From Halopiger aswanensis (lineage in GTDB: Archaea > Halobacteriota > Halobacteria > Halobacteriales > Natrialbaceae), in the NCBI RefSeq assembly GCF_003610195.1, contig NZ_RAPO01000001.1, positions 1,240,001 to 1,304,000 of the forward strand: 64,000 nucleotides of DNA, read 5' to 3'. This document shows positions 9,570 to 12,841 of the stretch, one piece after another; position 1 is the first letter of the stretch; each line of letters starts with the position of its first letter. Position numbers and translations under genes: made by a program. The notes beneath the pieces are model-generated. The model saw nothing but the letters and a program-made list of their open reading frames with translations, had not been told where the DNA came from and did not search any database.

Positions 9570-10649
9570 TCAGTCGATCGCGAACCGCAACAGCGCGCCG
9601 ACGCCGTCGAAGGCCTCGGCGAAGCGGCTCCCGTCCGGGAAATCGTCGGGCACGACGACCGTCTCGCCGCCCTGTTCCATCGTGCGGTCGCCGAACGCCC
9701 GGAGCTGCTGGCCCTCGAGCGCCGTCGAGAGCAACAGCGTGTCCACGGCGTCGTACTCGAGCGCGTCGTCGACCTCGTCCGTGCCGTAGGCGACGGCTGC
9801 GTCGTCGTCGCGGACCGCCTCGAAGAACTCCTCGAGCGCGTCGCGGGCGTCGCGCCGATCGCGTTCGTCGATCGCCGACTGGCCCTTCTCCGCGAGTTGC
9901 CGAAGGCCCTGTTCGCTGGCGTACTCGACGGCGAACTCGCCGAGGAGCCGGTCCTCGAGTCGGTGATCGAGGTCGGCCTCCTCGCGGAAGTCCTCGACCG
10001 TGCCGGTCGTACCGCCGAGGAGGACGCCGTCGACCGGGCCGCTCTCGCAGAACTCGAGGACGGCGCGCTCGGCGACCTCGTCGAAGAACTCGCGCTTTTG
10101 CCGTTCGCGGTCGCGTTCGAACCGCTCGGCAGACTGACCGCCGGCGCTGGACTTGCCGGGGACGTCGCTGTCGAAGATCTCGATGGGTTCGACGCCGGTA
10201 TCGTCGAGTCGGCCGAGGGCGGCGCCGCCGCGCTCGACGACGAGCAATCCGTAGGTCGAGTCGGGTTCGGCGACGGCCTCGAGCGGGGAGAGGTCGAACT
10301 CGTTGGCGTACTCGTAGATCGACTCGTCGATCGCCACGGGGAGGTCGTCGAAGACCGCTGTCACGAGATCGCCGTCGGGCGCGCCGGCGTAGATCGCGAG
10401 GCCGTTCTCGGGGACCTCCTCGTAGTCGTTCAACTCGCTGCGAACGGTCTCGAGAGCGTCGGTCAGGGGCTCCGGGAACGACTGTTCGTCGAGTTGCGTC
10501 GCTTCGGCGTAGTCGGTTTCGACCGGCTGGCGGGCTTCGCCGATCGATTCGTCGGGCGGGACGGCGAGCGTCACGAGGATATCGCGGTCGGCGTCGGCCG
10601 ACGAGAGACGGTCGAGTCGGTCGTGGAGTTCGTAGTTTGCCATCGACAT
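9570..10649 (-). CDS. Vms1/Ankzf1-type peptidyl-tRNA hydrolase (eRF1-like)
   Basis: 359 residues from the ATG at 10649 (MSMANYEL); the frame extends 13 codons further but that stretch is non-family. The protein has the three-part layout of archaeal/eukaryal release factor 1 relatives: an N-terminal region to about 130, a central domain to about 290 and an L30e-like C-terminal domain. The central domain carries PGKSSAGGQSAERFERDRE (residues 164-182), closely resembling the eRF1 GGQ loop that cleaves peptidyl-tRNA. In eukaryotes Vms1 releases nascent chains from tRNA on stalled 60S ribosomes; the haloarchaeal protein is inferred to act in ribosome rescue. It lacks an obvious codon-reading NIKS motif, so it is unlikely to be the normal termination factor. 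Confidence 0.85.
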   Translation of the reverse strand: MSMANYELHDRLDRLSSADADRDILVTLAVPPDESIGEARQPVETDYAEATQLDEQSFPEPLTDALETVRSELNDYEEVPENGLAIYAGAPDGDLVTAVFDDLPVAIDESIYEYANEFDLSPLEAVAEPDSTYGLLVVERGGAALGRLDDTGVEPIEIFDSDVPGKSSAGGQSAERFERDRERQKREFFDEVAERAVLEFCESGPVDGVLLGGTTGTVEDFREEADLDHRLEDRLLGEFAVEYASEQGLRQLAEKGQSAIDERDRRDARDALEEFFEAVRDDDAAVAYGTDEVDDALEYDAVDTLLLSTALEGQQLRAFGDRTMEQGGETVVVPDDFPDGSRFAEAFDGVGALLRFAID

Positions 10650-10824
10650 ACTAGCTGAGCACGTCGATACACCGGCAGAGCCCGTCACCGGTGATCGACA
10701 GGTACGGACGGTAGGCCGGGGCCGGAGTTGAGAAATCGGCTGGCGTGCTCAAGTACGAGTCACCTCGAGCGTTTCGAGAAAGCGGCCGACGGCGGGGGCT
10801 GCTGAGGACGGCGGACAGAACCGG

Positions 10825-11829
10825 TTAGTCCGAGCGGTAGCCGCGCGGCTCCTCCTCGATCGGGGGGCGGTCGTCGTCGCCCGATTTCCCGGACCCGATC
10901 GGCACGTCGAACGTGAGGCCGGGCAGCCGCGAGCGGACGGCGATCGATTCGCTGCCCAGCACCGCGAAGCCGGCGAAGATCGTCAGGAAGCCGACGGCGG
11001 CCGACGGCGCAATGTGCTCGCCGAGCAGGGCCCAGCCACCCAGCGTCGAGACGGCCGGCACGACGTAGAAGATCAGATTCGCGCGGATCGCGCCGGTCGA
11101 ATCGAGCAGGGCGAAGTAGGCGATGTACGCGAGGACGCCGGCGAAGACGCTGACGTACGCCAGCGCCGCGATCGCACCGGGGGTCCACGCGATCGACGCG
11201 GCCGACTCACCGGCCAGCGCCGAGAACCCGTGCGAGAGCGCGGCGGCGAGGGGCAGTCCCCACGCGATCCGAACCGTGCTCGAGACGGTCGCGTCGGCCC
11301 GGCGGATGAGGACGGCGCCCAACGCGGCGCTGATCGCACCGGCGAACAGAATCGCCTTGCCGACGGCGTCGCCGCCGAGCAGGTTCGCGGGGTCGGGGCT
11401 GACGACGAGGACGACGCCGAGCAGACCCAGCACCATCCCGATCGCGCCGCGAGCGGAGAGTCGCTCGTTGGAGAGGAGCACGGCTGCGAACACCGGCGTC
11501 AGGATCGGGTTGAGGCTGAAGACGATCGCGCCGACCGCGCTGGTCGCGTACTGCTGGCCGACGAACAGCAGCGAGTTCGAGAGGCCGATCACGAAGACGC
11601 CGGTCGCGACGATACCCAGCGCGTCGCCCCGCGTCGTCGGCAGGAGGTCCTCGCGCGAGACCGTGACGGCGACGTAGGCAGCCATCAGGGCGGCCGCGAC
11701 GTCGAACCGCAGCGCGACGAACAGCAGCGGCGGGAAGAACTCCAGTCCCGCTTTGGCCGCGACGAACGTCCCCCCGAAGAAGAGACTCGAGAGGACGAAA
11801 AAGGCGGCCGTTCGGCGATCTACGTCCAC
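10825..11829 (-). CDS. DMT-superfamily (EamA) transporter
   Basis: 334 residues from a GTG at 11829. This start is chosen over an ATG 47 codons upstream because a strong Shine-Dalgarno match, GAGGTGATC, precedes it by about six bases and because the protein then begins directly before helix 1. About ten helices form two EamA repeats: FVLSSLFFGGTFVAAKAGLEF opens the first and the second begins near ILFAGAISAALGAVL. The C-terminal 40 residues are charged and cytoplasmic. Family members export amino acids or metabolites; the substrate here is unknown. It is divergent from the FilR1-type regulator, which probably controls it through the palindromes at 11919-11988. Confidence 0.88.
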   Translation of the reverse strand: MDVDRRTAAFFVLSSLFFGGTFVAAKAGLEFFPPLLFVALRFDVAAALMAAYVAVTVSREDLLPTTRGDALGIVATGVFVIGLSNSLLFVGQQYATSAVGAIVFSLNPILTPVFAAVLLSNERLSARGAIGMVLGLLGVVLVVSPDPANLLGGDAVGKAILFAGAISAALGAVLIRRADATVSSTVRIAWGLPLAAALSHGFSALAGESAASIAWTPGAIAALAYVSVFAGVLAYIAYFALLDSTGAIRANLIFYVVPAVSTLGGWALLGEHIAPSAAVGFLTIFAGFAVLGSESIAVRSRLPGLTFDVPIGSGKSGDDDRPPIEEEPRGYRSD

Positions 11830-11880
11830 GAGGAGATCACCTCGGCGTCCGATGCTCCGGGGAGGGAGAGCGTGAGAAGC

Positions 11881-11888
11881 ATATCTAT
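11881..11888 (-). promoter_or_regulatory. Candidate TATA element of the DMT transporter gene
   Basis: On the minus strand ATAGATAT lies 52-59 nt before the GTG at 11829. It would place the transcript start near 11858 and leave a leader of about 30 nt holding the GAGGTGATC ribosome site. Confidence 0.45.
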
Positions 11889-11918
11889 CGGTAGGGGTGT
11901 TAGGGGCATAGTTTTGTT

Positions 11919-11933
11919 CAGAAAATATTTCAC
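11919..11933. promoter_or_regulatory. Degenerate copy of the GTGAAA/TTTCAC palindrome
   Basis: CAGAAAATATTTCAC matches the downstream palindrome GTGAAATTATTTCAC at 12 of 15 positions. It lies between the DMT transporter promoter and the main palindrome, suggesting a second, weaker operator for the same regulator. Confidence 0.5.
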
Positions 11934-11964
11934 GGCAAGAAATAGGCGGGTCGGCGTTACGCGC

Positions 11965-11988
11965 TTTCACGTAGTGAAATTATTTCAC
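11965..11988. promoter_or_regulatory. Overlapping palindromes TTTCAC-gta-GTGAAA-tta-TTTCAC
   Basis: Three perfect half-sites spaced by exactly 3 bp form two overlapping inverted repeats in the divergent DMT transporter / FilR1 regulator promoter region. GAAATTATTTC inside it is the only TATA-like stretch at a suitable distance upstream of the regulator ATG (12029), so bound protein would block TBP/TFB. Autoregulation by the adjacent HTH protein is the simplest reading; it is inference. Confidence 0.65.
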
Positions 11989-12028
11989 GGGGCGAAAGCT
12001 GTTTACCGACGCGGACGCGAGTACCCGT

Positions 12029-12841
12029 ATGAACGCGACGGACCCGTCGGCATCGGCGCTCGAGGAGATCGAGTTCCTCGCGCTCTCGGCGAACCGCGTC
12101 GACGTGCTCCGACTCCTCTCGGAGGGGCGGTACACGCGGACCGAACTGGCACAGGAAACGGGCGCGTCGCAGGCGACGCTCGGCCGCATTCTGGGGGATT
12201 TCGCCGATCGCTCGTGGATCACGCGAGACGGCAGCGAGTACACCGCGACGGCGACCGGCCAACTCGTCGCGTCGGGCTTTACCGACATGCAAGACATCCT
12301 CGAGACCGAGCGGCGGCTGCGGGGGATCGTGGAGTACCTGCCGACCGAGACGTTCGAGTTCGATATCCGGCGACTGGCCGACGCGCGGATCACCGTGCCG
12401 AGCCAGACGCGGCCGAACGCCCCGCTGCAGCGCCTGCTCGCCTTGCTCGAGGATGCGACGGAGGTCCGAGCGGTCTCGCACGCCTTTAACGAACAGAACC
12501 TGACCACCGTCCAGGAGCGAACCGAGACCGGCGAGCAGACCTTCGAGGGCGTCTTCTCGCGGGACGCGATCGACGCGCTTGCAGACGACTCCGCGCTGCG
12601 GACGCAGTTGCGGGAACTGCTCGAGACCGACCGCGCCACCGTCCGTATTTACGACGACGAGATCCCGCTCGCGGCGATGATCATCGACGACGTCGTCTAC
12701 CTGCTGGTGCGCGACGAGCAGGGAATCCTGCGGGCGTCGATCGACAGCGACGACGACGAGATTCGCGCGTGGGCTCGCGAGACGTTCGACTCCTACTGGG
12801 AGGGAGCCGCACCGCTCGAGGCCGACGCGCTGTCGTCCTGA
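12029..12841 (+). CDS. HTH transcriptional regulator with FilR1-type sensor domain
   Basis: 270 residues. Residues about 12-80 are a winged helix (ALSANRVDVLRLLSE, TRTELAQETGASQATLGRIL as the recognition region, then a wing at TRDGSEYTATATG). Residues about 120-260 match the FilR1/DUF1724 sensor domain found in many archaeal regulators, with AVSHAFNEQNL, LLETDRATVRIYDDEIPLAAMIIDD and RASIDSDDDEIRAWA. In methanogens FilR1 is linked to regulation of methanogenesis; haloarchaeal paralogues have unknown ligands. It is divergent from a DMT transporter, and three TTTCAC half-sites lie in the shared promoter, which suggests an autoregulated local repressor controlling export of its own ligand. Confidence 0.88.
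   Translation: MNATDPSASALEEIEFLALSANRVDVLRLLSEGRYTRTELAQETGASQATLGRILGDFADRSWITRDGSEYTATATGQLVASGFTDMQDILETERRLRGIVEYLPTETFEFDIRRLADARITVPSQTRPNAPLQRLLALLEDATEVRAVSHAFNEQNLTTVQERTETGEQTFEGVFSRDAIDALADDSALRTQLRELLETDRATVRIYDDEIPLAAMIIDDVVYLLVRDEQGILRASIDSDDDEIRAWARETFDSYWEGAAPLEADALSS

Follow-up and report, generated by a model that had tools for sequence, protein, structure and literature searches.

How is an exporter gene controlled when the only conserved gene beside it encodes a regulator that is transcribed in the opposite direction? The question is raised by a locus of Halopiger aswanensis, where a DMT-type exporter gene and a FilR1-type regulator gene diverge from an intergenic region that contains overlapping TTTCAC palindromes. 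The locus lies in a stretch of 64,000 nucleotides, referred to here as the window. An earlier note on this DNA proposed that the regulator represses both itself and the exporter and is released when its ligand accumulates. The gene pair, the sites, both promoters and the spacing between the sites have now been compared across haloarchaeal genomes.

The exporter and the regulator form a conserved divergent pair

The exporter gene (10825-11829, minus strand) encodes a 334 aa protein of the EamA/DMT superfamily, identified by Pfam (EamA, 9e-33) and tblastn. The two EamA repeats are recognised as two stretches in Pfam (113.9 bits against a cut-off of 28.2). The likely start is the GTG at 11829-11827, because the tblastn alignment begins at residue 1 and the start region is conserved in the orthologues. 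A longer ORF starting at 11970 is unlikely. NCBIfam gave no substrate, as every equivalog match (YedA, YddG and similar) was under its cut-off. The regulator gene (12029-12841, plus strand) encodes 270 aa and was defined from its Pfam domains and a predicted model. It has an HVO_A0261_N domain (3.2e-27, 94.7 bits, cut-off 35) and a FilR1_middle domain (3.3e-31, 108.4 bits, cut-off 27).

A search of 61 genomes with the regulator identified 30 loci. The relatives at 28 of them are 52-100% identical, and a divergent EamA exporter adjoins each one; the remaining two (42% and 37%) are without a divergent exporter next door. Exporter orthologues (52-100% identity) are confined to exactly the 28 genomes that hold regulator orthologues, and all other exporter matches are at most 48% identical. 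In named haloarchaeal species 126 regulator relatives were confirmed, and a divergent exporter lies beside the regulator at all of the best 80, which were retained. The genera at these 80 loci include Natrinema, Natronorubrum, Haloarcula, Haloferax, Halorubrum, Haloplanus and Halosimplex. Together with the window and its congener they provide 82 intergenic regions. The wider gene cluster was discarded as a clue to the substrate, since neighbours outside the pair are common to at most 13 of the 82 loci and track genera.

Also in the window is an aRF1/eRF1-like protein (9570-10688, minus strand; TIGR03676, 236.7 bits, barely over the cut-off of 234.7). The GGQ motif is present and, by eye, the NIKS motif is absent. 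This protein is perhaps a ribosome-rescue relative instead of a release factor.

The palindromic sites are conserved upstream of the regulator

The arrangement TTTCAC-gta-GTGAAA-tta-TTTCAC is present at 11965-11988 when the window is re-read, as the earlier note had reported, and its 12/15 match at 11919-11933 fits GTGAAATTATTTCAC with three mismatches. The same pattern is exact at 11974-11988, where the other strand has one mismatch. The three matches in the window compare with a shuffle mean of 0.10, and no shuffle reached three. A whole-genome search had been suggested in the earlier note; in the 4.87-Mb genome GTGAAATNATTTCAC is without a second place at up to one mismatch, and the same pattern read backwards has 0 places.

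The sites also recur upstream of orthologous pairs, the other comparison suggested there. GTGAAANNNTTTCAC is present at up to two mismatches in 72 of the 82 intergenic regions, against 2, 0, 2, 0, 6 and 0 regions for rearranged control patterns. At the same threshold it is found in 0 of 82 coding stretches and 11 of 1640 shuffled regions. Within the stretch from -75 to -15 relative to the ATG, 68 of the 82 regions have a GTGAAANNNTTTCAC-type site, and 61 of the 68 begin at -56 or -55. The earlier proposal was said to fail if the sites were not conserved upstream of orthologues, and such a loss is not what the regions contain.

Perfect copies of GTGAAANNNTTTCAC occur at ten places in the 61 genomes, seven of them at the regulator promoter. 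The other three (L032, L033 and L034) were viewed by ORF listing. At L032 (about 2954-2968) the copy lies off the pair, with a regulator-like ORF beginning at it and a 715-aa ORF running divergently. A model of the proximal site, R1, matches in 27 of the 61 genomes at E<=0.001, every time at the regulator promoter, and at this threshold has no match in the 33 genomes without a regulator orthologue. As R1 was trained on 27 of the 28 known sites, the informative part of this result is the absence of R1 elsewhere. Among 392 genomes of the order, R1 matches in 147 and R2 in 126 at E<=0.01. One genome has a second proximal-operator match on a different contig (G229:C5:54288-54328, E 5e-5), perhaps from a second copy of the gene pair. 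A dedicated local regulator with two predicted operators is well supported by these distributions, and it is highly probable that the regulator binds the candidate sites.

Two predicted operators with a shared layout lie at the two promoters

The predicted distal operator (GAAAATATTTCACGGCAAGAAA, 11921-11942, plus strand) abuts the exporter BRE region. The predicted proximal operator (GAAATTATTTCACGGGGCGAAA, 11976-11997, plus strand) contains the palindrome core of the earlier note and has a further TTTCAC half-site upstream (11965-11970, plus strand), which is seen in the window sequence and in the profile of 28 loci. The two operators are 82% identical across 22 nt and share the 22-bp layout GAAA-N3-TTTCACGG-N3-GAAA on the plus strand. 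The spacer that separates them (11943-11964) is conserved in length and not in sequence. The conserved divergent pair has a candidate double operator, with candidate sites in both promoters.

Haloarchaeal promoters are described as having a CGAAA BRE, a TTWT TATA element and a WW at -10, and in Haloferax a leader is reported to be absent from 72% of the protein-coding transcripts (PMC4983044). The 28 regulator loci, anchored at the ATG, have conserved TGAAA (-54 to -50), TTTCA (-46 to -42), CGAAA (-36 to -32) and TTT (-27 to -25). The putative BRE of the regulator is the CGAAA at 11993-11997 (plus strand), which also serves as the final half-site in the proximal operator; by position its conservation is C 89%, G 86%, A 96%, A 100% and A 82%. 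The TATA element is TTTA (12002-12005, plus strand, -27 to -24 from the ATG), and the TTT at -27 to -25 is found in 79-86% of the loci. The only TATA-like sequence of the regulator had been placed inside the palindrome, which is not correct, as the conserved TTT element lies downstream of it. Because the profile contains the haloarchaeal BRE and TATA elements (PMC4983044), the regulator transcript is probably leaderless, with its TATA element outside the palindrome.

The core promoter of the exporter is predicted at 11880-11914 (minus strand) from the conservation profile of the 28 loci. On the minus strand this profile reads TTTC, TGAAA, TTTTCTGAA and AACTAT, with a conserved T about 16 nt on and a TA about 26 nt on. 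In the window the TATA-like AACTAT is at 11913-11908, and a conserved TA near -10 is at about 11893-11892. The conserved T and TA may represent the -10 element and the start region; transcription would start at about 11882, and the leader would be about 50 nt long. AACTAT is weak compared with TTWT, as might be expected if the promoter were activated. An ATG at the putative start site is seen by eye to open a 20-codon frame (11882-11820, minus strand) that overlaps the exporter start and could be a leaderless upstream ORF.

The position of the sites bears on the sign of control. The end GAAA of the distal operator is conserved in the 28 loci yet is no BRE, so the GAAA of the proximal operator probably serves both as half-site and as BRE. 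This favours autorepression of the regulator by TFB occlusion, which we consider likely. The sign of exporter control is less certain because the distal operator extends only up to the exporter BRE, and repression of the exporter is only slightly favoured. In Haloarcula, TrmB sites that overlap the BRE are reported to give repression and upstream sites activation, with one stated exception (PMC10817205). A place just upstream of the BRE counts against double repression, since GvpE is reported to activate divergent haloarchaeal promoters from there (PMC4390858). Judged by where the sites lie, the regulator most plausibly represses both genes, although activation of the exporter retains some probability.

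The spacing between the operators changes in steps

The two operators of the window are 55 bp apart, start to start. In 111 genomes with R1 and R2 matches the spacing is 54-56 bp (69 genomes), 71-74 bp (29) or 90-93 bp (13); all 111 usable genomes are within these classes and none lies between them. The class means computed from this list are 54.5, 72.2 and 91.8, so that the step is not sharply 18 bp (the differences are about 17.6 and 19.7). The concentration (R) is 0.960 for a period of 18, 0.957 for 19 and 0.469 for 10.5.

The distance from the distal site to the regulator ATG is stepped as well. Eight of the 82 loci have a distal site too weak for this measurement, and 69 of the 74 with a good site fall in 106-109, 125-127 or 143-146. 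The five outside are L113 (92, perhaps because of a wrong start codon), L106 (150), L109 (151), L090 (183) and L108 (217). In contrast, the distance from the exporter start to the distal site is not periodic (R at 18 is 0.262, versus 0.902 for distal site to ATG, in the 82-locus set). Mapping the three spacing classes onto a tree of the 82 regulators takes at least six changes, for example from 72 to 90 bp within Natrinema.

The longer spacers contain additional GAAA motifs. A GAAA in the 18-bp register (0 to +2) is present in 24 of 26 loci (middle class 13 of 14, long class 11 of 12). At the 47 loci with the shortest spacing, the scanned part of the spacer has no GAAA. The Fisher values (5e-10 and 1e-8) ignore relatedness, and the 0 to +2 window was picked after seeing the data. 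In strict register, one GAAA is found in 11 of 17 middle-class loci, many of them from a single genus. The steps of about 18 bp and the in-register GAAA of the longer spacers suggest a cooperative phased array of the regulator, to which we attach a little less than even confidence.

A fourth class of 36/37 bp, seen at six Halorubrum loci, was rejected: there the best-scoring proximal element is about one unit upstream, and the distal site has the usual 106-108 to the ATG. In Halorubrum aidingense (L108, 2317-2418) the operator-like unit is present as six tandem 17-bp copies. Neither the stepwise spacing nor the shared 22-bp layout is a feature of the earlier note, and no description of this operator was found in searches of open-licence PMC papers.

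The regulator resembles TrmB-type proteins by fold

An AlphaFold2 model of the regulator (14 sequences, pLDDT 86.4, pTM 0.68) predicts an N-terminal winged HTH, a long helix and a C-terminal PLD/TrmB-like domain. The top eight Foldseek rows are TrmBL2 chains (E 2e-13 to 6e-11), with TM 0.40-0.43 and rmsd 17-21 over the full length; a TM of about 0.42 at such rmsd means that the domain arrangement differs from that of the regulator. TrmB (3qph) is row 10. In VIA-align the PLD-like domains lead (4urj_A, Z 15.9); TrmBL2 (5box_A) has Z 15.1 with 209 aligned and rmsd 20.5, and the TrmB sugar-binding domain (2f5t_X) has Z 13.4 with 129 aligned and rmsd 2.6. The modelled C-terminal domain has the TrmB-like fold, and other PLD-like proteins score equal or higher. 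By sequence, PDB relatives match in the HTH only (best E 0.00086). The TrmB domain of Pfam is PF01978 (PMC9426492), and it is not among the six Pfam families that match at E<=0.001. Judged from the model, ligand release could operate through the TrmB-like C-terminal domain.

A proposed switch and its alternatives

The pair, the sites, the promoter register, the spacing classes and the extra GAAA are present in the DNA itself. Binding, repression, the oligomer and the ligand are what we infer from them, in the form of an autoregulated exporter switch that joins the double operator, regulator occupancy blocking both promoters, ligand release and the phased array; taken together it is moderately probable. 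The FilR1-type regulator would read TTTCAC/GTGAAA half-sites that alternate in direction at intervals of about 9 bp, which gives an 18-bp unit. One half-site cluster would abut the exporter BRE and the other would include the BRE of the regulator itself, so that the bound regulator would exclude TFB and TBP from both promoters. A small molecule, probably the exporter substrate, would bind the TrmB-like C-terminal domain and release the regulator. Across the intergenic region the regulator may assemble cooperatively as a phased array. A tentative extension, somewhat less likely than not, holds that a sequence-specific, ligand-controlled regulator with a TrmBL2-like fold polymerises over the two promoters into a lattice whose unit covers about 18 bp. 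The number of operators and the distance between the promoters would then evolve by whole units, and the protein itself would set the steps in which the control region can vary in length.

Two ordinary, independent dimer sites would need no array, and the 18-bp steps would then be leftovers of tandem duplication without mechanical meaning. Tandem expansion is known from the six 17-bp copies in Halorubrum aidingense, and shared descent weighs here because the middle-class loci are mostly from Natrinema and Natronorubrum. However, the spacer drifts in sequence with its length held at 54-56 bp in 69 genomes, the spacing class changed at least six times on the regulator tree and the exporter side lacks the periodicity. 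We regard this explanation as unlikely.

Slightly more doubtful is a split control, in which the regulator represses itself through its BRE and, when ligand-bound, activates the exporter by recruiting TFB from the distal operator, a logic like that of GvpE or LysR. The distal operator ends beside, and not clearly over, the exporter BRE, and the exporter TATA departs from the consensus. GvpE is reported to activate from BRE-adjacent sites (PMC4390858), and most Haloarcula TrmB sites upstream of the BRE are reported to activate (PMC10817205). Against this, a third TTTC half-site extends into the exporter BRE region, and the regulator of the divergent PA2577/PA2576 regulator/EamA pair, from another regulator family, is described as a repressor (PMC8707732).

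DNA looping or helical phasing between the operators could be imagined from two like sites about five turns apart in the commonest class, but 10.5 bp does not divide evenly into spacings of 54, 72 or 91, and the far lower R at 10.5 than at 18 in the 111 genomes makes it very improbable. Ownership of the sites by a different, more global regulator is equally improbable: the three perfect palindromes elsewhere in the 61 genomes speak for it, but each genome has a single site, which goes with the regulator gene, and R1 is silent in the 33 genomes without an orthologue.

The proposed autoregulated switch shares features with several known systems. Regulators of the Haloarcula TrmB/TbsP type likewise combine a winged HTH with a PLD-like ligand domain by fold, and in them the place of the palindrome relative to BRE and TATA sets the sign of control (PMC10817205), as proposed here. 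TrmB differs in having 15 genomic sites and a report of no autoregulation (PMC10817205), whereas the regulator described here has one predicted locus that includes its own gene and is assigned by Pfam to HVO_A0261_N/FilR1_middle. TrmBL2, a chromatin protein of Pyrococcus/Thermococcus, is reported to form stiff cooperative filaments on DNA (PMC4877046). It is the nearest full-length Foldseek match, and an oligomer on DNA, proposed here from spacing, is described for TrmBL2; that protein is reported to coat DNA without strict sequence choice (PMC4877046), unlike the strongly conserved predicted operators of the regulator. The GvpE UAS of the gas-vesicle genes also serves divergent haloarchaeal promoters with an element beside each BRE. 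GvpE differs in being an activator of leucine-zipper-like type whose elements overlap centrally, and the cited part of that work describes no stepwise spacing (PMC4390858). PA2577/PA2576 of Pseudomonas aeruginosa is a regulator that is divergent to, and represses, an EamA-like transporter gene, as proposed here, although PA2577 is of the bacterial Lrp/AsnC type (PMC8707732) and not FilR1-type.

These results predict for a FilR1-type regulator an operator and two promoters as its targets, and show that an exporter is conserved as its partner across many haloarchaea. The pair occurs in Haloferax and Haloarcula, which makes it genetically testable there. If the array is true, a single assembly principle would apply to a filament-forming chromatin protein and to a specific regulator of archaea, and promoter spacing would evolve in protein-sized steps. 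If the lattice is true, the regulator would link a classical transcription factor to a filament-forming chromatin protein.

A paralogous regulator is associated with similar sites

A FilR1-type paralogue has sites of its own. TTTCACGNCGTGAAATATTTCAC at up to one mismatch occurs at nine places in the 61 genomes, all nine just 3' of this paralogue; the pattern was derived from four of the nine, so five are new. The paralogue neighbourhood uses the same TTTCAC-N3-GTGAAA vocabulary, and the recognition helices of the regulator and the paralogue are alike by eye (TGASQATLGRIL and TGASSPTLGRIL). The paralogue sites would offer independent support for the pairing of regulator and half-site. TTTCACGGCGTGAAATATTTCAC and a UbiE-like methyltransferase ORF are predicted to be a second operator and target of the FilR1-type family. 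At the four loci that were read (L147, at 1350-1372, L148, L149 and L150) the paralogue is followed by TTTCACGGCGTGAAATATTTCAC and then by this methyltransferase-like ORF, on which Pfam was run at one of the four.
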